From Sphingomonas sp. LM7 (lineage in GTDB: Bacteria > Pseudomonadota > Alphaproteobacteria > Sphingomonadales > Sphingomonadaceae), in assembly GCF_002002925.1 (NCBI RefSeq), contig NZ_CP019511.1, forward strand, positions 806,001 through 870,000: 64,000 bases of DNA, in the 5' to 3' direction. Below, piece after piece: positions 3,806-19,442 of the stretch. Position numbers and translations under genes: made by a program. Under the pieces are notes generated by a model. That model was given only the letters and a program-made list of their open reading frames with translations, did not search any database and had not been told where the DNA came from. Position 1 is the stretch's first letter. Every line of letters starts with the position of its first letter.

Positions 3806-4303
3806 TCAAGCAGGTTTCGCGCGCCCGCGGCGCGCCGGCGCCGGTGCCGGAGCTGCTGCAGCAGTTTTTGCCGCGCGCCCCTTGGCTCCAAGACCGATCT
3901 TGAGCGCCATTTCGCGCCGCTGCGCCGAATAGCTTTCCGCCACCATCGGGTAGTCGGCCTTGAGCTTGTAGCGCGCCCGATATTGTTCTGGAGAGAGGCC
4001 GTGCGTATTCAGATGCCGGCGCAGCGTACGGTAGGGCTTGCCGTCGATCATCGAGATGATGTGATCCTTGGACGCAAGCGACTTGCGCGCCGAAACTGCC
4101 GGCGTAAATTCTTCCTCGGCAACTTGCGTTTCGTCGCTCGCCGTTGCCGATGATCCGCCAGCAAGTTCGCTAAGCGTCGCGTGCATCGTGCGGAGAAAAG
4201 CCGGGACGTCCTCCGCCGATGTCCGGTTGTTCTGATTTCCCAGCCACGCGATCGTTAGTCCAGTCGCAAGCTCGACCGCATTCAATGAATTCTCTTCAGA
4301 CAT
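3806..4303 (-). CDS. MucR/Ros family transcriptional regulator (cysteine-less variant)
   Basis: The 165-residue protein has the MucR/Ros fold: an N-terminal helical oligomerisation region (LATGLTIAWLGNQN) and a DNA-binding core with 'TLRRHLNTHGLSPEQYRARY' and 'YPMVAESYSAQRREMALKIGLG'. MucR proteins are H-NS-like silencers of AT-rich promoters in alphaproteobacteria. The usual zinc-binding cysteines are missing: the segment reads DHIISMIDGK where homologues have a Cys. The C-terminus is an Ala/Pro/Lys/Arg-rich tail (AAAAPAPAPARRGRAKP) that may contact DNA. The ATG at 4303 has GAGGGG upstream and was preferred over the open extension to 4420. It probably regulates the transfer genes beside it. 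Confidence 0.85.
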   Translation of the reverse strand: MSEENSLNAVELATGLTIAWLGNQNNRTSAEDVPAFLRTMHATLSELAGGSSATASDETQVAEEEFTPAVSARKSLASKDHIISMIDGKPYRTLRRHLNTHGLSPEQYRARYKLKADYPMVAESYSAQRREMALKIGLGAKGRAAKTAAAAPAPAPARRGRAKPA

Positions 4304-4324
4304 TTCGACCCCTCGTCCGATGAC

Positions 4325-4336
4325 GCAAAATCTACC
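4325..4336 (+). promoter_or_regulatory. Repeated motif GCAAAATCTACC upstream of mucR
   Basis: GCAAAATCTACC here is nearly identical to GCAAAATCTACG at 1588-1599 and to the complement of 8891-8902. It is followed by ATCGGTAG, giving a CTACC/GGTAG dyad (4332-4347). It lies 22 bp upstream of the mucR start. A role as an element-specific operator is inferred only from its recurrence. Confidence 0.3.
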
Positions 4337-4385
4337 ACACATCGGTAGAGCGAACGTCATAAGCAAACTGTTGCGGGAGTCGAAT

Positions 4386-4664
4386 CTACAGATCTTCGGA
4401 ACCGACTTTTGCTTTCGCAAACGCGCGAATGCCGCGCCGCCGCCAGATCGCTGTCAGTCGCTCGCTGTCCTCACTGCGTATCTTCGCCGCCGCTTCACTG
4501 AGAATGCCAAACAGCACCGCGCGGTCATCATCGATCAGTTCGATGAGCCCGGCCTTGGCGACGAGACCGCCAAGCTCGATGAGCTGGCGTGTCCGCTCGC
4601 GTCGTTTCATCACCCAAGTTCGTCGGTCGTCACGGGCGATCCGCATCTCTCGCCGATGCCGCAT
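4386..4664 (-). CDS. traD: TraD-like small conjugal transfer protein
   Basis: A 92-residue basic protein with the TraD signature of Ti-type elements: Arg/Lys-rich start, then 'QLIELGGLVAKAGL', a second helix 'DRAVLFGILSEAAAKI' and an Arg-rich end. TraD is a small accessory protein normally encoded between TraC and the TraG coupling protein. The start is uncertain: ATG codons at 4664, 4646 and 4610 are all in frame. 4664 is chosen because the basic leader looks continuous; 4610 would give the more typical ~75 residues. The gene overlaps the 3' end of the upstream traC-like gene (to 4630), suggesting translational coupling. Confidence 0.6.
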   Translation of the reverse strand: MRHRREMRIARDDRRTWVMKRRERTRQLIELGGLVAKAGLIELIDDDRAVLFGILSEAAAKIRSEDSERLTAIWRRRGIRAFAKAKVGSEDL

Positions 4665-4950: not shown

Positions 4951-5120
4951 TGTACTGCCCTTAGAAAGCTTTCCGGCATGCGCAGTTATGGGCGGATACG
5001 ATCAGTGTAAATGCCGTGAAACATCGTGGGACACACGTTTCCCGATAATGATGAAATCTCTTGAGGGCGCGCTTATACGTCGTGCCGACGTCGCTTGTGT
5101 AGTGTAAGTGGATTGCCGTC
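4951..5120. promoter_or_regulatory. Divergent traC/traA intergenic region, possible oriT
   Basis: 170 bp separate the divergent traC-like and traA genes. In Ti-type systems oriT lies between traC and traA, so this is the expected place for the nick site. It is clearly more AT-rich than its neighbours (around 4990-5060) and should contain the two promoters. I could not identify a nick sequence by eye. Confidence 0.35.
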
Positions 5121-8027
5121 ATGGCGATCTACCACTTCTCGGCGAAGATCATCTCACGCGCCAACGGGTCGTCGGCGCTGGCGTCTGCGGCCTATCGCTC
5201 TGCTTCGCGGTTGCACGACCAGCGGCTCGATCGCCATCACGACTTCTCGAACAAGGCGGGTGTCGTGCATTCGGAAGTGCTGCTGCCGGACGGCGCACCG
5301 GACCAGTTCCGCGATCGGGAAACGCTGTGGAATGCCGTCGAGGGGGTCGAGCTACGCAAGGACGCGCAGCTCTCGCGCGAAGTGGAGTTCGCGATCCCGC
5401 GCGAGCTGGACCAGACAGAGGGCATCCGGCTTGCGCGCGAGTTCGTCGAAGGGGAGTTCGTCGCGCGCGGGATGATCGCCGATCTCAATGTGCATTGGGA
5501 CATCGGCGCGAATGGCGAGCCCAAGCCGCATGCGCACGTGATGCTCACCACGCGTGATGTCGACGAGAACGGCTTCGGCAAGAAGAACCGCGACTGGAAT
5601 CGCACCGAGCTTCTGGAGAAATGGCGCGAGCGCTGGGCCGAGCACGTCAATGAACGGCTGGCCGAGCTGGATATCGATGCGCGCGTCGATCATCGTTCGC
5701 TGGAAGCGCAGGGCATCGACCTAGAGCCGCAGCACAAGATCGGCCCCGCTGCCGCTGGCATGGCGGCGAAGGGCCTCCAGCTTGAGCGCGTCGACGAGCA
5801 TCGCGAGATAGCGCGATCCAACGGCGAGAAGATTATCGCCGATCCGCGGATCGCGCTCGACGCGATCACCCGCAACCAGGCGACATTCACCACCCGCGAC
5901 CTGGCGATGTTCGCGCATCGGCATAGTGACGGGAAAGAGCAGTTTGACCATGTGATGGCCGCGGTGCGCGGCTCACCCGACCTGGTCGCACTCGGCAAGG
6001 ACGGGCGTCGTGAGGATCGCTTCACCAGCCGCGACATGATCGACACCGAGCAGCGGCTTGCCCGCAATACGCAGGCATTGATGGAGCGAGACCGACATCG
6101 CGTTCCTCATCGAGCGCGCGAGGATGCACTCGCCCATGCCGAGCAGCGCGGTCTGGTGCTCTCTGCCGAACAACGCGCGGCGTTCGAGCACGTCACCGAC
6201 GCGCAGGATCTCGGCATCGTTGTCGGCTACGCAGGCACCGGCAAGTCGGCGATGCTCGGCGTCGCCCGCGGGGCTTGGGAGCGCGCCGGTTATCAGGTGC
6301 AGGGTCTGGCGCTATCCGGCATTGCTGCCGAAAATCTGGAGAGTGGGTCCGGCATTGCGTCGCGCACGATCGCGAACCTGGAGCATCAATGGGCGCAGGA
6401 CCGCGAGTTGCTGACCCGTGACCATGTGCTGGTGATCGATGAAGCCGGCATGATCGGCTCGCGGCAGATGGAGCGCGTGGTTGCCGAAGCGCAGAAGCGC
6501 GGTGCGAAGGTCGTGCTGGTCGGCGATCCCGAGCAGCTGCAGGCGATCGAAGCCGGCGCAGCGTTCCGCTCGGTGGCCGAGCGACACGGCAGCGTCGAGA
6601 TCACCGACATTCGTCGCCAGCGCGAGGATTGGCAGCGTGATGCGACGCGCCAGCTCGCTACCGGCCGGACCGGTGATGCGCTGTCCGCCTACGAAGAGCG
6701 CGGACATATCCAGGCGGCCGAAACGCGGGAGCAGTCGCGCGCCGACCTGATCGAACGCTGGGATCGCGATCGTGCCGCTGCACCGGCCGCGTTGCGGATA
6801 ATCCTGACCCACACCAATGACGAGGTGCAGGCACTCAACCAAGCCGCGCGCCAGCGCCTGCGTATCGCTGGGCAACTGGGCGAAGATGTCGATGTGCATG
6901 CCGAGCGAGGCTCGCGCACGTTTGCAGCCGGCGACCGCATCATGTTCCTCAAGAACGAGCGCGGCATGGGGGTGAAGAACGGATCGCTCGGCATTGTCCA
7001 GAGCGTCACCAGTGCTCGCATGGCAGTGATGCTCGATGATGGACGTGCGATAGCGTTTGACCTGAAGCACTATGCCCAGCTTGATCATGGCTACGCGGCC
7101 ACGATTCACAAGGCGCAGGGCGTCACGGTCGATCGAGTGCACGTGCTGGCCACGCCGGGGCTCGATCGGCATGCGGCTTATGTCGCGCTTTCGCGCCACC
7201 GCGATCAGGTCGAACTCCATTATGGCCGCGATGACTTTGCCGACCAATCGAAGCTGGTGCGCACGCTGTCACGTGAGCGCAGCAAGGATTTGGCGTCCGA
7301 CTACACGCAGGACTTCGCGGAGAGGCGTCAGATCCGGCTGCCGCAGCCGCTTGTGGAGAGACGGCGGCCGACGCCCACTTGCGATCCGTTCGCCGGGCTT
7401 GATCTCCGGCCGGTCACTCCGCCGCCTGCGCGGAGCATGTTCGATGGGCTGGCACTCAGCCGGCAGTCGCCGGCGTGCAGCGTCGAGCCGACCGGTTTGA
7501 ACAATGCCGTGCAGCGGTTCGCGCGTGCGACCGCCGATATCATGCGGATGCGTAAGGATGGCTATAGCGAGTTGCCGCACCAGCGGATTGCCTATGACAA
7601 GGCGCGAGAGGCGCTCGACGCCGTGCGGCCGGACGCGACGCGCGATGTTCGCGCAGCGTTCGTGCGGGACATGGGCCTGATCGAAGAGGCAGGGCAGGGC
7701 CGCACCAGCGGCGCTATCCGCGCGATGACCTTGGAAGCTGAGCTGCGCGCCAGCCCGCAGCGCCGTGCGGATCGGTTCGTGGAAGACTGGCAGAGGCTTG
7801 CCAAGGCCCATCGCTCGCTTCGTCATGGCGGTGACCTGACTGGCGCTCGCGCGATCGGGCAACAGATGACCGCGCTTGGCAAGAGCATGGAGCGTGACGC
7901 GCAGGCCGAGTCGCTGATCCGGAAGCGGCTTCCCGAGCTTGGAATCCAGGCACGCGAAGGGGTTTCGATATCCCACAGCATCCAGGACTGGCTCGGCCTC
8001 TCGCGTGGTCGCGGGCTGGGGAGATAG
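5121..8027 (+). CDS. traA: Ti-type conjugative relaxase-helicase TraA
   Basis: The 968-residue protein is a MobA/MobL-type relaxase fused to a superfamily 1 helicase. The relaxase (about 1-230) starts AIYHFSAKIISR, has Tyr in AAYRSA as a candidate nucleophile, and the metal-binding His pair H137-A-H139 in PHAHVML. The helicase follows, with Walker A GYAGTGKS (369-376), Walker B 'LVIDEAGM', and the late motif 'GYAATIHKAQGVTVDRVHVL'. The C-terminal ~230 residues are helical and Arg-rich, as in other TraA proteins. It would nick and unwind the element for transfer. The ATG at 5121 gives the normal N-terminus. No mating-pair (Trb) genes are in view; they may be left of the window or absent. Confidence 0.9.
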   Translation: MAIYHFSAKIISRANGSSALASAAYRSASRLHDQRLDRHHDFSNKAGVVHSEVLLPDGAPDQFRDRETLWNAVEGVELRKDAQLSREVEFAIPRELDQTEGIRLAREFVEGEFVARGMIADLNVHWDIGANGEPKPHAHVMLTTRDVDENGFGKKNRDWNRTELLEKWRERWAEHVNERLAELDIDARVDHRSLEAQGIDLEPQHKIGPAAAGMAAKGLQLERVDEHREIARSNGEKIIADPRIALDAITRNQATFTTRDLAMFAHRHSDGKEQFDHVMAAVRGSPDLVALGKDGRREDRFTSRDMIDTEQRLARNTQALMERDRHRVPHRAREDALAHAEQRGLVLSAEQRAAFEHVTDAQDLGIVVGYAGTGKSAMLGVARGAWERAGYQVQGLALSGIAAENLESGSGIASRTIANLEHQWAQDRELLTRDHVLVIDEAGMIGSRQMERVVAEAQKRGAKVVLVGDPEQLQAIEAGAAFRSVAERHGSVEITDIRRQREDWQRDATRQLATGRTGDALSAYEERGHIQAAETREQSRADLIERWDRDRAAAPAALRIILTHTNDEVQALNQAARQRLRIAGQLGEDVDVHAERGSRTFAAGDRIMFLKNERGMGVKNGSLGIVQSVTSARMAVMLDDGRAIAFDLKHYAQLDHGYAATIHKAQGVTVDRVHVLATPGLDRHAAYVALSRHRDQVELHYGRDDFADQSKLVRTLSRERSKDLASDYTQDFAERRQIRLPQPLVERRRPTPTCDPFAGLDLRPVTPPPARSMFDGLALSRQSPACSVEPTGLNNAVQRFARATADIMRMRKDGYSELPHQRIAYDKAREALDAVRPDATRDVRAAFVRDMGLIEEAGQGRTSGAIRAMTLEAELRASPQRRADRFVEDWQRLAKAHRSLRHGGDLTGARAIGQQMTALGKSMERDAQAESLIRKRLPELGIQAREGVSISHSIQDWLGLSRGRGLGR

Positions 8028-9051: not shown

Positions 9052-10404
9052 ATGGCGCGAGCTGGCAGCGGGGGAACCCGCCGATCGGGTAAGGCCGGTA
9101 TTCAGGTCAGTGGCGAAGAAGGCGGTGCATGGGCCGAACTCAATGCGCGCCTCGCCGGAACGGATCCGCAGGACGGGCAGGCTCTGCGGGATGCAGTCGC
9201 CGCGCTCTATGAAACGGCAGCCGGCACCTTCGAGCCGCTGCTCCAGGACTTCGAGGCGTTCAGCGAAGCCGAGCTCGCGCAAGGCGGCGACGCCCGGGCG
9301 GCGCGGGTCGCTCGCGGCGACATCGCGGTCGCCGGCGGCGCGGATTCACTCGCCGCTCTGCTCGACGCGTCGCACCTGCTGCGGGCGCTCGAAGCCAATC
9401 TGGCCGAGTTCGGCCGCTATGTCGAAAGCGACCTGGGGGAGGATCTCGAGGCGGCGTGGCGGACCAGCGACGGGCGCCATTATGTCGTCCCCCGCGTGAC
9501 GCCACTCGCTGCCGCCGACGGCAAGCCGTTCCTACGCCGCGCGCTCCGCCATCACCGGGTAATTCCGACAACGATCGACGGGTTCGGGGTCAGGCTGCAC
9601 CGCTCGCCGCTCGCGGCCGGTACGTCGGCAGCGGCACAGGAGCGCGCGGAATCCGGCCGCCGCTACGGCGCCGCGCTGTTCCCGGGGCTGAAGGTCACGC
9701 TCGGCTTTCCGGGCGACGGCCTCTTCACCGTCGACGGGCTGGACGGGTTCGACGCCGCCTCGGTGATCGAGGCGCATCTTGACGAAGCGGGCAGGGAAAG
9801 CTGCTCGGCGATCGTCTGGGGCGAGCTGACTATGCCTGAGACGAGCACGGCCTGGCTTCGAGGACGTTTCGCCGAACGCGCGCTCGATGGCGGAATCGCG
9901 CTCCGCTATCTGGTCGCGGGCAGCTGGCATCGGCCGGTCGCGGGCAGGATGCGCAACGTTGCGCCCGTCCTGGACGGGCTGGGCGAGCCGCTGTTTGAGG
10001 TCTTCAAATGGGCCAAGTTCAAGATCGATGGGAAGCGCGAGGCGATCGAGCCCGGGGACGAGATCCACATCCTAATCGATGAGGACGAACTCGTCGTGTT
10101 CGCGATCTGCCGCGATTTCCTCCAGGAGACCAGGGAAGTGCCCTATCGCAACCTCAACGTCGATGTCGCCATCGTCCCCTCGATGACCTCCGGCGTGCCG
10201 GACCCCGACACGATGCAGGGCCATGCAGCGACCGCCCAAACGATGCGTGTCCGCTTCGGCACGCGCACACTCGTCGTCGCCCAGCCCGCCTTTGCGGCCG
10301 CCGGCCCTGTCGGCGAGGTGCTCGCGTTTCCGGCAAAGCCGCTCAAGCAAAACAGCGACACCGTCGAGACCGCTTTTCGTCTTTGCATATTGGAAACCCG
10401 CTGA
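9052..10404 (+). CDS. Nitrilase-superfamily (carbon-nitrogen hydrolase fold) protein, cassette gene 1
   Basis: The 450-residue protein has a ~200-residue N-terminal extension I do not recognise, then a carbon-nitrogen hydrolase fold from about residue 205. The three signature blocks are in order: AIVWGE (E258), then 'YLVAGSWH' and 'VLDGLGEPLFEVFKWAKF' with K319 or K322 as catalytic Lys, then 'LVVFAICRDF' with C353, followed by 'DVAIVPSMTSG'. Spacing (61-64 and 31-34 residues) matches nitrilases and amidases. These enzymes cleave nitrile or amide C-N bonds through a Cys thioimidate or acyl intermediate. The overall sequence is far from metabolic family members. It is the first gene of a cargo cassette with a wHTH protein, a giant repeat protein and a HEPN protein. 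Substrate unknown. Confidence 0.7.
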   Translation: MARAGSGGTRRSGKAGIQVSGEEGGAWAELNARLAGTDPQDGQALRDAVAALYETAAGTFEPLLQDFEAFSEAELAQGGDARAARVARGDIAVAGGADSLAALLDASHLLRALEANLAEFGRYVESDLGEDLEAAWRTSDGRHYVVPRVTPLAAADGKPFLRRALRHHRVIPTTIDGFGVRLHRSPLAAGTSAAAQERAESGRRYGAALFPGLKVTLGFPGDGLFTVDGLDGFDAASVIEAHLDEAGRESCSAIVWGELTMPETSTAWLRGRFAERALDGGIALRYLVAGSWHRPVAGRMRNVAPVLDGLGEPLFEVFKWAKFKIDGKREAIEPGDEIHILIDEDELVVFAICRDFLQETREVPYRNLNVDVAIVPSMTSGVPDPDTMQGHAATAQTMRVRFGTRTLVVAQPAFAAAGPVGEVLAFPAKPLKQNSDTVETAFRLCILETR

Positions 10405-10416
10405 GCGTACGCATAT

Positions 10417-10442
10417 TGTAGCGTGTAGTGTAATGTAGTGTA
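10417..10442 (+). promoter_or_regulatory. Direct-repeat operator candidate before the wHTH gene
   Basis: The 66-bp gap between cassette genes 1 and 2 contains TGTAGTGTA twice with exact 10-bp periodicity (10424-10432 and 10434-10442) and a degenerate copy TGTAGCGTG at 10417-10425. The central 9-mer GTGTAATGT (10428-10436) recurs, inverted, at 19102-19110 over the start of the convergent HEPN gene. Helical phasing and the adjacent wHTH gene suggest an autoregulatory operator. Confidence 0.4.
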
Positions 10443-10470
10443 TGGTCGCTGCGGGCGGCCGGGAGAATCA

Positions 10471-11325
10471 ATGATGGTGGCATTGACGCAGGCGCGGGGA
10501 CTCGATTTCGCCGCGGCCTCGCCCGAGGCGGCGCGGACGGCGATCCGCGAGGCGCTCGCCGATGAGCCCAAGGCAGCGCGTCGTGTCTATGCGGCGTTGG
10601 CGTACAAGGTGTGGTCACTGCTGGTGGAGCGTCGTTTCGACGCCGAGATCCGCGACTGGCACGCGCTGCTGCACCAGGTGAAAACGCATATCCGCAGCGA
10701 GGATATGGCGGCGGCCGAGCGGGTTACAGCGCTTGCCGACCTGCTGCGCGAGTCGATCAGCCTTTCCGAGACCAGCCCGGCGCGCGAGGTTGCCCGCCGT
10801 CCCAATGCCAGGCGGATTTTGGAAATGCTCGCCAAGGAGGACGGACTCGTGCCGCGCCGCAAGCTGCTCGATGCGCTCGGCCTGCGCTCGGCCAATCTCT
10901 CGAATGTCCTGACGCTGTTGCTCGCACACAATCTCGTCGAGCGGCGCGACAAGGGCAAGGAAGCCGAATTCCGCCTGACGCGCTTCGGGCGGCAGATGCT
11001 TGAGAGCGAGGAAAAGCCCACCGCCAAATCCGCCACCCAGGCGCTAGTCCAGGACGTCGATCTGCTGGCCAGGCTGCTCGGCACGGACATGCATACCCCC
11101 TCGCGGGAAAATGTCTGGTTCGAACACGGCGTCTATCTGGCGTCGCTGGCCTTGCCCAAGGGCTTGCACGGCCCGGTCTCCATTGGGGACCTCATGCAGG
11201 GCGCCTCGGTAACGCATGTGGCGGTGCCGCATTGGTTCGGGGGCGGAAGCCATGTGCCCGCGCCGACTCCGCTCGGCTATCGCCACGGCCGTCTTCCCGT
11301 CACTACGCTGTTGCCGGCCCGCTGA
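10471..11325 (+). CDS. Winged-helix DNA-binding protein, cassette gene 2
   Basis: The 284-residue protein has a helical N-terminal half (about 10-100) and a winged helix at about 110-180: 'NARRILEMLAKEDGLVPRRKLLDALGLRSANLSNVLTLLLAHNLVERRDKG' read as recognition helix plus wing, ending EAEFRLTRFGRQML, as in MarR/ArsR-like regulators. The last 100 residues are unassigned and end in a Gly/Pro-rich tail. GGGAG lies 5 bp before the ATG at 10471; a second ATG follows at 10474. Tandem TGTAGTGTA repeats directly upstream are a likely binding site. It probably controls the cassette, although a sensor role cannot be excluded. The stop is 17 bp from the next start. Confidence 0.6.
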   Translation: MMVALTQARGLDFAAASPEAARTAIREALADEPKAARRVYAALAYKVWSLLVERRFDAEIRDWHALLHQVKTHIRSEDMAAAERVTALADLLRESISLSETSPAREVARRPNARRILEMLAKEDGLVPRRKLLDALGLRSANLSNVLTLLLAHNLVERRDKGKEAEFRLTRFGRQMLESEEKPTAKSATQALVQDVDLLARLLGTDMHTPSRENVWFEHGVYLASLALPKGLHGPVSIGDLMQGASVTHVAVPHWFGGGSHVPAPTPLGYRHGRLPVTTLLPAR

Positions 11326-11342
11326 CGCAGCGATTGCACGCG

Positions 11343-14300
11343 ATGGACCCGGCCCTTTCCGCGCTCGGCCTCAAGGTCGCGGCGCCCGCGGTGCTCGCGG
11401 GCTACCGCGCGCTGCGCCATGAGCTTGCGCGCCGGCCTGGCGATCAGGGGCTCATCGGCCTCGACGACGTGCTCGATGAAGCAATCGCCGTGCTCGCTCG
11501 TGAGGCCGACGGCCTATGGAAGGCGGTGCAGGTCGCCGCAAAGGGCGCGCTGACCCGGCCCGCGCTCTTCGACGAGGCGGTGCCGCGCGCATGGATCGCG
11601 ACAGAAGATGCCCAGCTCAGCCTCAAGCTCGCTGCGCGCGCTGCCATTCGCGGTGAAGACGATGGCCCGCATGCCGCGCGCGCGGTCGCCCATTACCAGC
11701 TCTTCCTGGACGAGGATGACGAAACCGCGGCCGATGCCGCGACTGCCTATGCCGCGGCGCTCGAGTTCCTGCTGGCGAGCCTGCGCCGCGCGCTGACACC
11801 CGGCGACCGGGCGATCCTCCAAGCGGTTCACGGACTGCGCGAGGAGATCGAGCGCATCCGTCCCGAGGACACGAGCGACATCATCGACGCGTATGTCGAG
11901 GCGGCGATCCGGCGCCTCCGTGCGCAGCGCTTCTTCCGCTCCGCGGACAGCAGGGGCGACGCTGCGGCGTTGGTATCGGCGCTGATCGACGGCCGGCTGC
12001 AAGGCGCCGGCCCGAAGACCCGCGCTTCGGCGCTCGCTTGGTGTGCCCGTATCCTCTCCTTTGGCGAAAGCGAGGTAGCCCGTGCGGCGCTGGCCCGCGC
12101 GTCCGTGCTTGGCGATGCTGCAATGCCCGAGCTCAGGATCGCCCAGGCATTCATCGCCGCGATCGACGATTACCAGGCCGGATTGGCGCTCCTCGATGTC
12201 GATCAGGGACCGGCGGTCGCGACTGCGGCGTTCCAGATCCTGCGGCGCGGGCTCGGCACCGAGGGCGCGCTTGCCCGGGCACCTGAAGCGGGGCTCGACT
12301 TTGCGAACCTCGATAGCGACGGGCGCTATTCGCACATCACCGCGCTGGTCGAGACCGGCGATTGGGCAGGGGCGGTGGACGCGACGCGCATGCTGGCCGC
12401 CGACGATTTCGAGACGACCCCGGCGTTGCTGTGGGTGGCGGGCACAGCGCTGGTCGCGGCGCAGTTGCCCGACGATCTCAAGCGCAGCATCCTCCAGGAT
12501 ATTCCGGCGCATCCCGCCGCGTTTCCGCTGCGTGACGACCAGGTCGCGCGCGAACAGCGCCAGCTCGCCCGAAACTTCATGGATCGTGCCGCCCAAGTCT
12601 GTGCCGGGCTCGATCTCGCCCGCGAGGCCGCTGCAGCGGAACGCTACAGCCTGTGGCTGGGCCTGCGCGACCCCGGAACCCGCGAGGAAGCGCGCGCCGA
12701 GCTGCGCCGCCGGATCGACCGGCCCGGAAGCGAGCTTCTCTATTTGCCGCTGGCGCTCGGCTTCGAGACTGGGGTTGATCGCGTCCGTGCCGAGGCGGCG
12801 ATCCGCCGCCGGGTCGCGCGCGGCGCAACCGACGATCCCGAGCTCGCCGGCGCGGCGGTGGCGCTGCTCCTCGACTATGCTCATAGCGATCCCGGCGAAG
12901 CCGCCGCGTTCATTGACCGGCAGCGCACGCTACTCGTCGATTATCTCGATCCCGCGAGCTTCGTCCGGCTTGAGATTGGGGTCCTGACCAGCGCGGGTCG
13001 CCATGACGCAGCGCGCGCGCTGCTCGCCGGCCCCGGCACCGTCCTGTCCGAGGCTTTCCGGACCCTGCTCGCGAGCGCGGTAGAAGAAAGCGACGCCGAG
13101 CCTTCGCTCGAAGTGCTCGAAGCCGCCTATGGCGCCGATCCGCAGACCGCGACGCTAGCCCATCTGGTCGAGCGCTATCGCGAACTCGACTATTCGCCCC
13201 GCTTCCTCGAGTTGGCGCGGCGTCTGCTCGCCGAGCTGCCTACCCATCAGTCCGCGCTTGAATGCTTGGTTTTTCTCGGCGAGCAGGGGCGCTACGCCGA
13301 AGCGCTCGAGCTGGTCGAGTTGCTGGGCGACCTCATTACCCAGAACCCACTGCTCGCCCTTCAGGCGGGCTGGATCTATTTCTGGCTGGGTCGCTTCGGC
13401 GATGCCGAAGCGATGCTGCGGGTTGCCGAGGCCCCCCCCGGCACCGGCCAGGCGCGAATCTTGCGTTACCAGCTACTAGTCGCCAGCGGTCGCTGGGAGG
13501 CGATCGACGCGTTCCTTGAGGAGCAATGGCAGGCGCGCGCGCAGCGCTCGCCGCTCGAGCTGGCCCAATGCGCGACGCTCGCCGCGCAGACCCGCGCCAA
13601 GCGCGTCACCGACCTGGTGCGTGAGGCGGCGGCGCGCGCGCCCGACGATCCCCAGGTTCTCGTCGCCGCCTATAGTGCAGCGACCGCCGCCGGGCTCGAA
13701 GAGGCTATTCCCGAGGCGGGATCCTGGATCATGCGCGCGGCCGAGCTTTCGGATCCGGACGGGCCGATCCAGAAGCGGTCGCTCGCCGAACTGCTCGACG
13801 ATCAACCCGAATGGGAAGCGCGTGTAGCTGACGCGCGGCGCGGCCGGGCCGATGCGGAGATGCCGCTCGCCGGCGTCGCGATGCTGCTGCGCCAGCCCTG
13901 GCTTGAGCTGCAGCTCGCGCCCCTGCTCGAGAATCCGGAACAGCCTTTTCCTAAGCGCCGCCGCGCCGCCCCGCTGTTCAGCGGACGCCAGCGTATCGAT
14001 GCCGCCGAGACGTTCGAGGCGCGCGAGATCGCGCTCGACCGCCACGCGATCGTCACCTTGGCGGCGGCCGGCACGCTCGATGCCGTCGTCGCGGCGTTCG
14101 ACCGTCTCCACGTACCGCACGACCTGTTCAGCGACCTGTTCGAGCAGTGCCACCGCGTCGCCTTCCATCAGCCAAGCAAGATTGCCTTCGCGCACCGCCT
14201 GCTCGAACTACTGGCGCGCGGTCGGGTGAAGCCGTTCGAGCCCGGCACTGTCGCGGATGTCGGTCTCATCACCGAGATCGGCGAGAGCCGTGCGGCGTTG

Positions 14301-17300
14301 CTGAGCGAGGCGGTCGCGCAAGCGGACGGCCAGCATGTCGTCGTCCATCCTCATCCGATCACCCGAGTCGGCTCGTTGCTCTCCGAACCGGTGCCGCTCG
14401 ACCGCTATGCCGCGCATCTGTGCAGCTGCTTAGGCGTGCTCGATGCGCTTGAGCGTGCCGGACGGCTCAGCCGGTCCGAGCTCGACCGCGCGCGCGCCTA
14501 TCTCGAGCAGCATGACCGCCGCTGGCCGGACGAGCCCGTGATCGAGGCGGGTGCGACTCTGTATCTCAGCGACCTGGCGGTCGACTATTTCCGCTACACC
14601 GGATTGATCGACAAGATCGCGGCGGCCGGATTAACGGTGGTGGTCGCCAAGTCCGAGCTCGCCGAAGCCGAGGCTCTGCGCGGCGTCGATGCCTTGGCAC
14701 AGGCGGTCACCCGCGTGATCGATGGCCTGCGCGCTACCTTAGCGCCGGCACTTGCCGAAGGCCGGCTCTGCCTCGGCGCCGCGGCGCGGCACGAGGAGGG
14801 GGAGGGCGCCGCTTCCTATATCGCCGGCTTCGAGAGTCTGATCTTTCGCGCAGATACCCTGGTCAGTGACGATCGGTTCTTCAACCGCTACGCCCATTTC
14901 GAGCATCCGAGCGGCAAGCGGCGGATCCTGAGCTCGCTCGACTTGGTCGAGCTCTTGTCGCGCGGCGGCAGAATCGAACCGGCGAACCTCGAGACCATGC
15001 GTGCCTGGCTCCGCGGGGCGGGCGCGATCCTGGTCGGCACCCGCGGCGACGAGCTGCTCGGGCTACTCAGGCCGACAGTGCCCGATGCGGCGTTTCGCGA
15101 GACCGGCGATCTCCGCGCGATCCGCGAGAATCTGCGGCTCGCCCAGATGCGCGGCTGGTTCGATCCCAAGGTCGAGATCGGCTGGCTGGTCGCCTTCCAA
15201 GAAGCGCTCGGCGAGGCACTCGTCGGGCAGTGGCGCAACGATATCCCCGACCCGCTTGCCCGCGCTCGTTCGGACTGGCTGTTCGTCTGCATGCAGTCGC
15301 GCGACTGGGCCGATACCGATGTCGGCGCGCCGTTGGAGGGGTTGGCCTGCAACGGCATGGTCCTCGATCTTGCCAAGCTCGTCGGCAGCTATCGCCAAGT
15401 CGAGACCGATGCCCGACCGCGCTTCGCAGCGTGGCTTGAGCAGGACGTGCTCGCCCCGCTCTGGGATAGCGAACCGCGCCTGGAGGCGATCTTCCACCAG
15501 CACCTGCGCGAATTGCTGCTCTCAGTCGCCGCGGATCTGCACCGCGACGAGCCCCAGGTGAGCGAACGCCGGGCGCTGCTCCTGTCGCTCCACGCCTTGC
15601 CGGATTTTCTGCAGGTGGCGCTTCTTCAGGACGAAAATTTCCGCGCCAGGACGGGCCATGCGCTCGAGGCCACTGTCGAAATCGGCAAGGCGTCGTTCCT
15701 CCGCAGTGCCTTCTGGCGCGTCGCACAGGTCGTCTATGCGGAACCCGAGGCCGAACGGCGTATCGCCGATATCGCCGGCAACCGCTGGACGCTGCGCACC
15801 GAGCAAGGTGATGGAAGCTGGCCCCTGCTGCTCCGGCGCAAGAAAATGGGTTATCGAACGCGGGGCCTGGCGGGGCTGCATCCCGATGCCTCGGAGCGGG
15901 TAGCGATGCTCGACGCCCTGTTGGCGGATTATGGCCAGACGCCCGCCTCGCTCGGCGACTGGCATCGCCGGCTGCTCGAAGGGCCGCTCGACGCGGCCGG
16001 CATCGAAGCGCTCGACCTCGCCTTGCGCGGGTTGCCTGGCGCAGGCGCCGCCGCGATCGTCGACAGCCTGTCGGCGAACGAGGCCTCGATCTCGCTGCTC
16101 GTCCCGCCTTCGCGTGCCTATTGGAGCGCGCTGCTGGGAGACGGCCCGGCCGAGGACCTCGAAACCTATGTGACCGATGTATTGCCCGGCCAGCTTGCCC
16201 GGCTCCGCGCCGAACATCAGAATCCGGATAGATGGCTTCTTCTTCTCGCGGCGCATCCGCGAATCCTCGGCGAGGACCGGTTTGGGTCGCGCACCGCCGA
16301 GGAATGGCATGCGCTGGGACGCTGGGCGGTTGAGGCAGGGGACCCGATGGCCAAGGCGGGTTTCATCGAGCTCGCGTTGCCGCATGTCGGCAGGGATGCG
16401 GCGCTCGACGCACTGATCGTCACGCTCGCCGATCAGATCGAGGCACTCGACCCCGAGGACGCTTCGGGCGCGCTGCACCTGGTCTCGAGCCTGGCGATGT
16501 TCGTCGATGGCGAGCTGAGCCGATTGGGCGTGCTCGCCGATTGGCCGCCCTTTCGCCGGCGTCTGGCGTCACTTGCCCAGGCGGCGCTGATCGCCCGGAT
16601 TGTCGACGGCCAGATCGACACGCAGCATTTCGCAGCATTCTGCACCGCCCAGCGCGGCTGGCGATTCCTGGTCCAGAACCTTCTCGACCTACAGCGCGAG
16701 CCGCGCTGGCGCCCTGACTTCATCACCGCCGGGCAACTCAAACACGAACTGATCGGCCGGATCGTCAACGCTGCCGGCGCGATGCCCGAAACCGACATGT
16801 CGGAGAAGTTGCGATCCCGCTTCTTGGGCCAGGAAGACAGCCTGCGCGCGCGGATGGCATATCCGATGGTCTTCTGGCCTGGTCCGCTCGAAGGCGGCAG
16901 TCGCCTGCAGCCGCTGCCCGAGGCTCTTTGCGAGGATCTCGATCGCGCCTTCGCCGAAGAGACCCCGAACCTCGAGGCGCTGATGCTCCTGGCCAACCTG
17001 GCGGCGATGTTCGCGATCCCCGATGATCTGGTCGAGCGGGCGGTGGCTCGCATTCGCGCCGCGGGACCGCGGTTGCTGGCATTGATCCCGACCGAGCGCG
17101 TCTACGCCCAGCTGCTGGGCTTGGCGCATGTCGCCGCCTCGCATCGCGCCGAGCCACTCGCCGATGCGGTGCAGGTGCTCGCCCGGGTCTCGCGGCTGCA
17201 AGTCCGCTGGCCGGTCGCCGAGGAGATGCAGCTTGCGCTGTACGCGGCCGCCTCGCGCGAAGCACCCAGCGATTGGCGCCGCTATCTCGGCAATTGGATC

Positions 17301-17444
17301 GCCGAACTCGTGGTGCGCAATGAGGATCGCGACTATGGCACGCAGTTGCTGACATGGACCGAGGCCCTGTGCGAAATCGATCCGATCTTCAGGACCAAGG
17401 CAGGCAGCGCGGTTGCGTCGCTGCGACTTCTGCTCGATCGCTAG
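11343..17444 (+). CDS. Giant 2033-residue helical-repeat protein with PIN-like central region, cassette gene 3
   Basis: This is by far the largest gene of the window. Residues 1 to about 880 are alpha-helical repeats of TPR-like character (such as LECLVFLGEQGRYAEALELVE and LLALQAGWIYFWLGRFGDAEAML). A region at about 890-1190 breaks the repeats and has PIN-nuclease-like features: a strand-Asp start at D899 (LDRHAIVTLAAAG), a second at D1077 (LYLSDLAVDYF), E1105, and the paired acids D1176/D1177 in VSDDRFFNRY. D1077-E1105-D1176/1177 fits PIN spacing. The remaining 840 residues are helical, without a family I know. No NTPase Walker motif or transmembrane segment was seen. The start at 11343 follows the upstream stop by 17 bp; an in-frame codon at 11232 would overlap it. 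Function unknown; a scaffold-sensor carrying an RNase is the working idea. Confidence 0.6.
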   Translation: MDPALSALGLKVAAPAVLAGYRALRHELARRPGDQGLIGLDDVLDEAIAVLAREADGLWKAVQVAAKGALTRPALFDEAVPRAWIATEDAQLSLKLAARAAIRGEDDGPHAARAVAHYQLFLDEDDETAADAATAYAAALEFLLASLRRALTPGDRAILQAVHGLREEIERIRPEDTSDIIDAYVEAAIRRLRAQRFFRSADSRGDAAALVSALIDGRLQGAGPKTRASALAWCARILSFGESEVARAALARASVLGDAAMPELRIAQAFIAAIDDYQAGLALLDVDQGPAVATAAFQILRRGLGTEGALARAPEAGLDFANLDSDGRYSHITALVETGDWAGAVDATRMLAADDFETTPALLWVAGTALVAAQLPDDLKRSILQDIPAHPAAFPLRDDQVAREQRQLARNFMDRAAQVCAGLDLAREAAAAERYSLWLGLRDPGTREEARAELRRRIDRPGSELLYLPLALGFETGVDRVRAEAAIRRRVARGATDDPELAGAAVALLLDYAHSDPGEAAAFIDRQRTLLVDYLDPASFVRLEIGVLTSAGRHDAARALLAGPGTVLSEAFRTLLASAVEESDAEPSLEVLEAAYGADPQTATLAHLVERYRELDYSPRFLELARRLLAELPTHQSALECLVFLGEQGRYAEALELVELLGDLITQNPLLALQAGWIYFWLGRFGDAEAMLRVAEAPPGTGQARILRYQLLVASGRWEAIDAFLEEQWQARAQRSPLELAQCATLAAQTRAKRVTDLVREAAARAPDDPQVLVAAYSAATAAGLEEAIPEAGSWIMRAAELSDPDGPIQKRSLAELLDDQPEWEARVADARRGRADAEMPLAGVAMLLRQPWLELQLAPLLENPEQPFPKRRRAAPLFSGRQRIDAAETFEAREIALDRHAIVTLAAAGTLDAVVAAFDRLHVPHDLFSDLFEQCHRVAFHQPSKIAFAHRLLELLARGRVKPFEPGTVADVGLITEIGESRAALLSEAVAQADGQHVVVHPHPITRVGSLLSEPVPLDRYAAHLCSCLGVLDALERAGRLSRSELDRARAYLEQHDRRWPDEPVIEAGATLYLSDLAVDYFRYTGLIDKIAAAGLTVVVAKSELAEAEALRGVDALAQAVTRVIDGLRATLAPALAEGRLCLGAAARHEEGEGAASYIAGFESLIFRADTLVSDDRFFNRYAHFEHPSGKRRILSSLDLVELLSRGGRIEPANLETMRAWLRGAGAILVGTRGDELLGLLRPTVPDAAFRETGDLRAIRENLRLAQMRGWFDPKVEIGWLVAFQEALGEALVGQWRNDIPDPLARARSDWLFVCMQSRDWADTDVGAPLEGLACNGMVLDLAKLVGSYRQVETDARPRFAAWLEQDVLAPLWDSEPRLEAIFHQHLRELLLSVAADLHRDEPQVSERRALLLSLHALPDFLQVALLQDENFRARTGHALEATVEIGKASFLRSAFWRVAQVVYAEPEAERRIADIAGNRWTLRTEQGDGSWPLLLRRKKMGYRTRGLAGLHPDASERVAMLDALLADYGQTPASLGDWHRRLLEGPLDAAGIEALDLALRGLPGAGAAAIVDSLSANEASISLLVPPSRAYWSALLGDGPAEDLETYVTDVLPGQLARLRAEHQNPDRWLLLLAAHPRILGEDRFGSRTAEEWHALGRWAVEAGDPMAKAGFIELALPHVGRDAALDALIVTLADQIEALDPEDASGALHLVSSLAMFVDGELSRLGVLADWPPFRRRLASLAQAALIARIVDGQIDTQHFAAFCTAQRGWRFLVQNLLDLQREPRWRPDFITAGQLKHELIGRIVNAAGAMPETDMSEKLRSRFLGQEDSLRARMAYPMVFWPGPLEGGSRLQPLPEALCEDLDRAFAEETPNLEALMLLANLAAMFAIPDDLVERAVARIRAAGPRLLALIPTERVYAQLLGLAHVAASHRAEPLADAVQVLARVSRLQVRWPVAEEMQLALYAAASREAPSDWRRYLGNWIAELVVRNEDRDYGTQLLTWTEALCEIDPIFRTKAGSAVASLRLLLDR

Positions 17445-17467
17445 ATTTCCCAGCCGTTCGCCCCGCG

Positions 17468-19105
17468 TTAGAGCGGATCGCGCCGCTTGCGACGATCCTC
17501 CAGGCCAAACAGTGACATCGATCCGATAATGGTGTCCGGGTCCGCTCGCCCACGAGTCCGTTCCTCCACGCCGATCGCCAGCGTGAGTTGGATCAGCGCG
17601 GACCGCGCTATCTTCATCACGCGGAGCGCCTTGGCTTCGAGCAGGTCGCTGTCGATCGATAGACCCAGCCCCTCCGCGCTCGATTTCGGTCCCATCAATT
17701 GCCAGGCCCAGCCTTCGTGGACCTGCAGATATTTATGCTCGAGCGCGTTGCGGATGTCGTGCAGCTCGCGGGCATCCGCGCCCGTGGTTCGCTTGAGCTC
17801 GTCGTCGAACAGCTCCTTGGACAACCAGTAGAGCCCGCGCAGCGGCCAATTCTCATAAGCCTTGAAGCGGTCGAGCAGCCGCGGCTTGCCTTCGACCATC
17901 CAGACATTCTTGAAGTTGATCCGGTCGGCGATCTTCCCGAGCTTCCAATAATGATCGACCAGGAAGGCTACCTTGTCGAGCAGAGAATAAGCGATGCGGA
18001 ATGCCGTTCGAACCCGCTCCGCGGCGAGACCGTGGAGCGGATAATCGAGCGTGTCGAACAGCTGCACGCCGCGGTCCGAGAAGTGCACGCGGGTATCGTG
18101 CAGTCCCTCGTAGAGCATGAAGCGCGCCGACACATATTCCTGCTTCATTTGGTTGAAGAAGCCGATGACCGGCGGCGGCGTGACCACGCCGGGGCGTTCG
18201 TCGAAGCGTTCGCGGATCGGCGGCAGAACCAGGTCATCCGAAGCCGCCGCCGAATACGCGCCAAGATCGTTGAGCGGGCTGAGGAACAGACGGCGCTGGA
18301 GGCACCATAGCCGATAGGCGCGTTCCGCCTTGCTGCGCCCAAGCGGCGGCCCATCCAGGTCCTGGATCGCACGAATCCGCTCGAGGTCGCCGGCCCGCGT
18401 GCACGCCTCTGCGGCGTCGGCGATCTGCTGCAGCACCGCGTCCGGATAGACCGAATCATAGACCGCGCCGGGAGCGTTGGCAGCGGCGAGCCCGTCATGG
18501 GCGTGCAGGAGTAAGATCGCGCGCTGCCGAATGTCGTCCAGCAGTCCGCCATAATGTTTGAGGCCATAGCCGCGATTTGCCTGCGCCATCGCGAATCTAG
18601 GAATGATCCGGAGCGCCGCATCCCATCCTTCGATCGCATCGATGAAGCGCCCCATCGTGTCGAGCTGGCTCGCCCGGTTGGTCAGAATCTGGCAGCAGCG
18701 GATCAGGTCGAGTTCGACGAACCCTGGATGCACTGCGGCGCGCGACAGCGCGAGCACCTGCTGTTCGCGCTCGGGATGCTCCCACGCCCAAGAGCCGCGC
18801 TCTCCCGCCACTTCTTCCTTCAAGCTCCACGCATTGGCGCGGAAATATTCGATCAGCACGCCTTGCTTGGCGGTCAGTTCGCGCTTCGCCAGTTCGTCGA
18901 GCAGATAGAGGGCGCGGTCAGCGCCGCGGCCGAATCCAGCGTCGTGTGATAGGTCGATCAGCGTGCCGATATGCTCGAGCGCGGCCTCGGCACCTAGCTT
19001 CGTGATCGAACGTTCGCGCAGCTTCTCCAGTCCTTCCTGCCTTGCCAAGGATCGATCCCCCCCCCGATGATGCGCGGTGCAGTCACGTCTGATGATTACG
19101 GACAT
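17468..19105 (-). CDS. TPR plus HEPN protein, LA2681-like, cassette gene 4
   Basis: The protein (545 residues from the ATG at 19105) has an N-terminal helical/TPR half (ILTNRASQLDTMGRFIDAIE) and a C-terminal HEPN domain of the LA2681 type from about residue 360. The HEPN active-site motif RX4H is intact: R452-N-A-L-E-H457. HEPN proteins are usually RNases in toxin-antitoxin and antiviral systems. The gene converges on the giant gene with 23 bp between stops. The start is uncertain: a TTG at 19048 gives a cleaner N-terminus (LARQEGLEKLRER), and the 57 bp between contain a run of nine G on the coding strand. The much longer frame to 19264 is not protein-like. Confidence 0.7.
   Translation of the reverse strand: MSVIIRRDCTAHHRGGDRSLARQEGLEKLRERSITKLGAEAALEHIGTLIDLSHDAGFGRGADRALYLLDELAKRELTAKQGVLIEYFRANAWSLKEEVAGERGSWAWEHPEREQQVLALSRAAVHPGFVELDLIRCCQILTNRASQLDTMGRFIDAIEGWDAALRIIPRFAMAQANRGYGLKHYGGLLDDIRQRAILLLHAHDGLAAANAPGAVYDSVYPDAVLQQIADAAEACTRAGDLERIRAIQDLDGPPLGRSKAERAYRLWCLQRRLFLSPLNDLGAYSAAASDDLVLPPIRERFDERPGVVTPPPVIGFFNQMKQEYVSARFMLYEGLHDTRVHFSDRGVQLFDTLDYPLHGLAAERVRTAFRIAYSLLDKVAFLVDHYWKLGKIADRINFKNVWMVEGKPRLLDRFKAYENWPLRGLYWLSKELFDDELKRTTGADARELHDIRNALEHKYLQVHEGWAWQLMGPKSSAEGLGLSIDSDLLEAKALRVMKIARSALIQLTLAIGVEERTRGRADPDTIIGSMSLFGLEDRRKRRDPL
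19057..19065 (-). repeat. Homopolymer G9 tract (coding strand) at the HEPN gene start
   Basis: Nine consecutive C on the + strand (G on the coding strand) lie between the two candidate starts of the HEPN gene. If translation starts at 19105, any length change shifts the frame. If it starts at the TTG 19048, the tract is 8-17 nt upstream and acts as the ribosome binding site. Both would allow slipped-strand switching. Confidence 0.55.
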
Positions 19106-19110: not shown

Positions 19111-19280
19111 CAAGAGAGTCGGTGGTTCGAACGTCCGGTTTGGCTAGGATGGTGCCTGAAACCTGATAGTCAGCAGTCTGCCCACGTCCAGCCGTTGAAC
19201 CGGGCCTGCTGAGGCTGCGGAGTGTCCCATCACCAGAGTGTCTTGATGGCCGCCATTTGCGCATCTGTCTGGGGAAATGC

Positions 19281-19368
19281 CTTAGCGGCTCAGGAGGTTT
19301 ATAACCGATCCGTTACCGAAAACGGCTACTGAGCCTGGCATTTTACCGCTAAGCGATTGAAATCGCTT
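19281..19368. other. Structured segment abutting the tRNA-Glu 3' end; probable island boundary
   Basis: Directly 3' of the tRNA is a perfect 8-bp dyad, AAGCGATT (19351-19358) with AATCGCTT (19361-19368). Next to it are nested inverted repeats: CTTAGCGG (19281-19288) with CCGCTAAG (19346-19353), GGCTCAG with CTGAGCC, and a CCGTT/AACGG hairpin (19310-19324). tRNA 3' ends are classical integrase targets, and the gene content switches from accessory to core here. No integrase gene and no second copy of the tRNA end is in the window, so the attachment-site reading is inference. Confidence 0.4.
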
Positions 19369-19442
19369 GGTGACCCCTACGAGAATCGAACTCGTGTTTT
19401 CGCCGTGAGAGGGCGACGTCCTAACCGCTAGACGAAGGGGCC
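19368..19442 (-). tRNA. tRNA-Glu (anticodon CTC)
   Basis: The complement folds as a full cloverleaf: acceptor GGCCCCT pairs with AGGGGTC, the D arm is GTCT/GGAC, the anticodon stem TCGCC/GGCGA closes the loop CTCTCAC (anticodon CTC, reads GAG), and the T arm is ACGAG-TTCGATT-CTCGT. The 3' CCA is encoded (19368-19370). Its 3' end faces the accessory region. Confidence 0.95.

Follow-up and report, generated by a model that had tools for sequence, protein, structure and literature searches.

Introduction

Which of four neighbouring genes on a mobile island of Sphingomonas sp. LM7 belong together, and do they make up a defence system that has not been described? The genes, here called A to D (Table 1), lie in the 64,000-nucleotide stretch of DNA that was analysed as a whole and is referred to as the window. 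A first-pass annotation had regarded them as cargo of a mobile element, had joined all four into one system and had known no named system of this composition. The genes, coordinates and spacing that it gave are all correct (gaps of 66, 17 and 23 bp).

Two lines of earlier work bear on this question. A conflict family combining TPR repeats, a GreA/B-C domain and a PIN domain has been published (Kaur et al. 2021, eLife, PMC8195603). In the available parts of that paper most of its members are described as standing alone, with little conservation of their neighbours and with exchangeable, fused N-terminal effectors or EAD10, and they are predicted to act at hijacked RNA polymerase. The immune nitrilases that we found in the literature occur as domains associated with a reverse transcriptase, as far as the accessible excerpts of the sources go (PMC9122126, PMC13275509), and in the latter excerpt the nitrilase domain of DRT1 is linked to abortive infection.

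Table 1. Features of the A-B-C-D region, with positions counted along the window
Feature	Position	Strand	Description
Gene A	9052-10404	+	predicted nitrilase-superfamily protein, 450 aa; N-terminal helical extension; triad E258-K319-C353
A-B gap	10405..10470	+	TGTAGTGTA at 10424 and 10434, 10 bp apart; GTGTAGTGTA common to 4 A-B-C loci
Gene B	10471-11325	+	winged-helix protein; 66 bp gap after A
Gene C	11343-17444	+	giant repeat/double-PIN/permuted GreAB-C protein (predicted), 2033 aa; 17 bp gap after B
C: HTH_upst_double_PIN, residues 814-882	13782..13988	+	E 2.1e-13
C: PIN-like region, about residues 897-1238	14031..15056	+	acids D899, D1176/D1177, E1237
C: Permuted_GreAB-C, residues 1446-1491	15678..15815	+	E 3.3e-7, above cut-off
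Gene D	17468-19105	-	LA2681-type HEPN; convergent with C, 23 bp apart; independent neighbour
tRNA-Glu	19368-19442	-	
Attachment site (3' 44 bp of tRNA-Glu)	19368..19411	.	exact repeat at G000 C1:786575-786618

Results

A 38.8-kb island carries the four genes at its tRNA-Glu end. An exact copy of the 3' 44 bp of tRNA-Glu lies 38,793 bp leftward, outside the window, where it adjoins a tyrosine integrase (L055:1264-2553), and a MobA/MobL-type relaxase-helicase is carried by the same island. Integrase, relaxase and the 44-bp repeat thus bear out the view of mobile-element cargo. The reading frame of gene D is open upstream to an ATG at 19264.

Judged by an invariant E-K-C triad, Pfam matches in relatives and the predicted fold, gene A is a probable nitrilase. 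E258, K319 and C353 are unchanged in 19 of 19 sequences (alignment A11, window included). The window protein itself has no Pfam match above cut-off and CN_hydrolase is absent from it; four of seven scanned relatives match this domain above and two below cut-off, with none in L105. An AlphaFold2 model (mean pLDDT 77.4, pTM 0.82) gave 186 Foldseek matches at E <= 0.001, the best 50 of which are all nitrilase-superfamily chains (E 1.4e-9 to 2.2e-7). Mouse nitrilase-2 is the top match among those listed (E 1.4e-9), and the TM-scores of these best 50 are modest, 0.33-0.40 by query and 0.39-0.64 by target. When sequence profiles were compared with the PDB, 22 of 23 chains matched by profile A11 at E up to 10 were of the nitrilase type (best 0.0065); profile A2 gave three weak matches (E 0.29-0.45). 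The nitrilase fold with an intact triad, as the first-pass annotation had it, agrees with both the alignment and the predicted structure. A relative of A at locus L094 matches the PADLOC model CARF_nitrilase (PDLC01989; model residues 220-354, E 1.3e-7), and no CARF match was obtained for the window protein in Pfam or PADLOC scans. Domain scans of A, B, C and D returned no reverse transcriptase match. A phage or viral origin of A and C was dropped, as neither matched in phages or, by pattern scan, in viral contigs, a result that is neutral for a role in defence.

Gene B consists of a helical N-terminal region, a winged helix at about residues 110-178 and a variable tail. Its MarR/ArsR-type matches stay below cut-off; the assignment as a winged-helix protein stands. 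Profiles of B from the two main branches proved to be homologous by hhalign (98.2%, E 3e-14). The gap between A and B contains two copies of TGTAGTGTA and the 10-bp GTGTAGTGTA, which is exact in the A-B gaps of all four loci at which A, B and C occur together. By comparison, the shared bases number at most 6 in 1000 dinucleotide shuffles (6 being reached in 3 of 1000), and 4 and 5 in two control stretches; the L105 stretch used in this gap comparison extends about 10 bases into B. A third exact copy of TGTAGTGTA, at 5098, immediately precedes the relaxase gene, and with one mismatch allowed there are 4 copies in 64 kb against 0.91 expected, a number reached by 1 of 100 shuffles. Two copies of TGTAGTGTA next to the shared GTGTAGTGTA would suit an operator for B, and the gap is a likely, putative operator/promoter of B and C.

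Gene C appears to belong to the published TPR-GreAB-C-PIN conflict family as a double-PIN form, in which the PIN part is predicted. Besides the domains in Table 1, PIN-TPR-GreABC matches residues 898-928 below cut-off (E 6.5e-5) and exceeds the cut-off among the relatives in L008 only. TPR_19 is likewise below cut-off; TPRs are above it in the relative L031. All 8 sequences of alignment A4 keep D899 and D1177, and these acids, together with HTH_upst_double_PIN, speak for the PIN-like giant repeat protein with paired acids that had been proposed. The Pfam scan revealed no recognised N-terminal domain or fused effector in the window protein. The N-terminal parts of relatives include PNPase (L031) and a DUF676 esterase (L007), which agrees with the published account of the family, and on an Agrobacterium and a Methylophaga plasmid (L007, L008) the relatives are split into two genes. 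L030 adjoins Hma genes and L031 a type I restriction gene. PF24407 is rare, with 4 of 398 phylum genomes including the window. As C belongs to the published family, the giant is not new. Nor does it need A and B, since none of the six C relatives opened outside the four A-B-C loci has an adjoining A-B pair.

A, B and C form one unit, as seen from their conserved order and the 10-bp sequence that their A-B gaps share exactly. Gene order is kept at all four A-B-C loci (window, L017, L018 and L105), and the proteins of the three others are 38-58% identical to those of the window. The window has 17 bp between B and C, L017 has 10 and L018 has 81; in L017 an integrase flanks the set on one side and McrBC on the other. 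In a tree of A (33 rows) the A proteins of these loci fall on one side of a branch with 100/100 support.

Relatives of A are sparse. A single-protein search of 289 genomes of the class yielded one weak relative beyond the window's own, and profile A6 was required to find more; a pattern-and-profile scan of genome contigs led to 12 loci. Profile A6 matched 7 of 397 genomes of the family, 4 strongly and 3 weakly, and 26 of 398 genomes of the phylum, 14 of them strongly. Weak matches, defined by E above 1e-8 (3 of the 7 and 12 of the 26), were not counted as true A, and those scanned, L071, L072 and L087, were ordinary CN hydrolases.

Across 34 counted A loci, A-B is a near-constant core, and the third component is exchanged between bacteria. 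A B-like gene follows A on the same strand in 33 of them, window included; L099, the sole locus lacking an intact B, was omitted from the tree, and in L095 a distance of 278 bp separates A and B. The third component is C at 4 loci, a small protein at 15, a KGGVGR-motif protein (K-type) at 12 and an extended B alone at 2 (533-548 aa, without a third gene), with neither at 1. The small proteins measure about 150-180 aa, fall into two or more kinds that tblastn does not relate to each other and have no Pfam match above cut-off in four of four scanned. The KGGVGR proteins are MinD/ParA-like; among eight scanned, six carry TPRs, one an Mrr_cat-NACHT-pentapeptide arrangement (L103) and one WD40 (L101), and three of three scanned match the PADLOC candidate PDC-M28B. 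These counts comprise 33 tabulated rows plus L098 and include the near-copies L010/L019 and L011/L025. Left out were L014 (a fragment of A, no B found), the weak L016, L027 (a frameshift breaks A; B and the third gene are present), L107, taken by sequence as the same plasmid as L012, and the plasmid matches H3 and H5-H10 (7 of 15). At the 12 K-type loci B was profile-tested in eight, found by tblastn in L097 and assigned by eye in L098, L100 and L102; the small protein was assigned by tblastn except in L106, where this was done by eye.

Defence genes adjoin some of these loci. On a Bradyrhizobium plasmid (L013), a set of A, B and small protein adjoins PDC-M01/Septu-like and IetA genes. A PADLOC scan of ten hand-picked neighbour proteins produced eight clear matches, one borderline and one without a match, a sample that gives no background rate. 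Counting against defence, several K-type loci (e.g. L093-L096) adjoin ordinary housekeeping genes, and A, C and D of the window have no PADLOC match.

Discussion

With slightly better than even confidence, we regard A-B-C as one mobile and modular system against invaders, most likely phages, that would act by abortive infection and from which D is separate. The winged helix of B would bind the element in the A-B gap and hold B and C low. The repeats of C together with its GreAB-C domain may sense an RNA polymerase that has been disturbed or hijacked, or some other phage feature, and its PIN centre would cut RNA. Activated C would then release or assemble A, whose nitrilase site might hydrolyse an essential amide-containing metabolite or protein group, whereupon growth stops. 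The nitrilase is cast as the toxic arm; our main precedent is that of DRT1, which is tied to abortive infection in the available excerpt of its report (PMC13275509). Profile comparisons found no domain common to C and any of A, B or the small third protein; as a shared adaptor domain is thus missing, the link between A and C is one that we infer. In other bacteria, the alternative sensors serving the same A-B core could be scaffold proteins of the KGGVGR-ATPase, NACHT or WD40 type.

More tentatively, and at somewhat less than even confidence, we suggest that the pair of nitrilase and helical winged-helix protein is the constant core of an undescribed modular immune system, sparse and broadly spread among prokaryotes. 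Its partners would be swapped (the TPR/double-PIN/GreAB-C giant, KGGVGR-ATPase scaffolds with TPR, WD40 or Mrr-NACHT-pentapeptide parts, the small protein or an extension of B), with the nitrilase as the shared killing enzyme, directed at a metabolite or a protein and gated by different sensors.

The part that seems to be new is the A-B pair and not the giant C. The claim that no named system exists has to be withdrawn for C, which falls into the TPR-GreAB-C-PIN family, and is upheld for the pair: neither the open-licence literature nor PADLOC scans contained a system with a nitrilase-wHTH core, a scope outside which most subscription papers and bioRxiv lie, so that an earlier description is possible. 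C shares with the family of PMC8195603, as portrayed in the available parts, HTH_upst_double_PIN, the permuted GreAB-C domain and PIN-like acids, and has relatives with PNPase and DUF676; it differs by the nitrilase-wHTH pair upstream of it in four A-B-C loci and, in the window, by having no recognised fused effector. DRT1 resembles A in its nitrilase fold and catalytic residues and has a known defence setting according to the excerpt of PMC13275509, whereas A is a separate protein and no reverse transcriptase match occurs in A-D. A nitrilase domain is also found in the tested anti-phage system RT-nitrilase + 1TM (excerpt of PMC9122126), but there it is fused to the reverse transcriptase. CARF-nitrilase (PDLC01989) is matched by the A protein of L094 and not by that of the window, which has no PADLOC match and no CARF; by the name of this PADLOC model, a CARF-linked immune nitrilase is on record. 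PDC-M28, a PADLOC candidate, has a B component that matches the KGGVGR partner, while the window has C in its place. If our reading is true, a free nitrilase with its own regulator and several scaffolds would represent a general means of coupling a single enzyme to various immune sensors, the substrate question of defence nitrilases would become testable outside DRT1, and the TPR-GreAB-C-PIN family, described as mostly standalone, would gain a conserved operon partner.

Other explanations have to be weighed against this. A and B might be a sensing and control module: a small amide signal would be produced or removed by A and read by B, which would then switch on the third gene, and this gene, C as an RNase for example, would be the effector. 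Constancy of A-B beside a varying third gene is what a fixed control core with swapped effectors would look like, and the element shared by the A-B gaps of the A-B-C loci, a sub-threshold PAS_8 match in the extended B of L091 and possible nuclease parts in third genes (Mrr_cat, PIN-like) point the same way. We nevertheless think it rather unlikely: six of eight scanned K proteins offer only TPRs and weak ParA/MinD-type matches and no known toxin domain, the small third protein is without a Pfam match above cut-off in all four scanned, and the nitrilase of DRT1 is tied to abortive infection in the excerpt of PMC13275509. The tight B-C spacing, the patchy distribution within the family, locations on plasmids and islands, and partners with NACHT, Mrr or WD40 make it improbable that A-B is an ordinary regulator-plus-amidase unit of metabolism or stress preceding large genes, with C a separate gene acquired once in the lineage. 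This would fit the single branch of the tree that holds the A proteins of A-B-C loci, the existence of C without A-B elsewhere and the several loci among housekeeping genes.

The original model, one system of all four genes, appears very improbable to us, even though D is convergent with C at a distance of 23 bp on the same island. D is absent from the other three A-B-C loci (fetched stretches of 19-21 kb), A, B and C are absent around six of six opened D loci, and the plasmid records with A (15), C (3) and D (21) are all different. D was rejected as a system member on this context, and is a separate, independent defence-type gene beside A-B-C. Of the proposed system, A-B-C survives by its recurrence in three other genomes and D does not; co-occurrence beyond this lineage, on which the first-pass annotation had let its model depend, is lacking for the four genes and is found for A-B-C. 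The description of D as a HEPN protein with an intact RX4H was accurate. It contains HEPN_LA2681 (Pfam E 5.9e-71) with the motif at residue 452 and, with this domain and motif, looks like an ordinary member of the LA2681-type HEPN proteins as presented in the available part of PMC3710099. Its neighbours in four annotated plasmid regions vary, with a NACHT gene in the vicinity, a helicase gene or no gene of note, and relatives of D are carried by two viral contigs.

The PIN-like region of gene C, the giant double-PIN protein, looks as if a single PIN domain had been interrupted by the insertion of a second PIN-like unit. This appearance stems from sequence comparison with its PNPase-fused relative in locus L031, which lacks much of the stretch separating the conserved acids D899 and D1177 in the protein from the window.

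The gene accompanying the A-B pair (nitrilase-superfamily and winged-helix proteins) differs among loci. In Bradyrhizobium, the pair is followed by a conserved protein of approx. 150 amino acids belonging to no known family, and in Sphingobium a different small protein takes this place. In loci L103 and L101, the partner carries a KGGVGR motif followed by Mrr_cat, NACHT and pentapeptide repeats (L103) or by numerous WD40 repeats (L101). These KGGVGR partners are large immune-type scaffolds and deserve separate study.

A third exact copy of TGTAGTGTA, the 9-bp putative operator of B present twice in the A-B gap, is located approx. 15 bp upstream of the relaxase gene, hinting that this transfer gene might also be a target of B or a similar protein. 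The mobile island that holds these genes also encodes a toxin-antitoxin-like fusion of a nucleotidyltransferase and a HEPN domain, an IS110-type transposase and a ROS/MucR regulator.

Coordinates of island features, of a relative of C and of A-B partner genes
Feature	Position	Location
Nucleotidyltransferase-HEPN protein	456-1583	window
IS110-type transposase	1802-2923	window
ROS/MucR regulator	3806-4420	window
TGTAGTGTA, third copy	5098-5106	window
Relaxase gene	5121-8027	window
TPR histidine kinase hybrid	within L055:3057-12211 (C1:788556-797710)	left island part
S8 peptidase, repeated NIRTFSGD motifs	same interval	left island part
Two EAL proteins	same interval	left island part
PNPase-fused relative of C	L031:6748-12906	
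KGGVGR-Mrr_cat-NACHT-pentapeptide partner	L103:10754-14041	
KGGVGR-WD40 partner	L101:2113-7434	
Small third protein	L011:11980-12441	
Small third protein	L010:11713-12195
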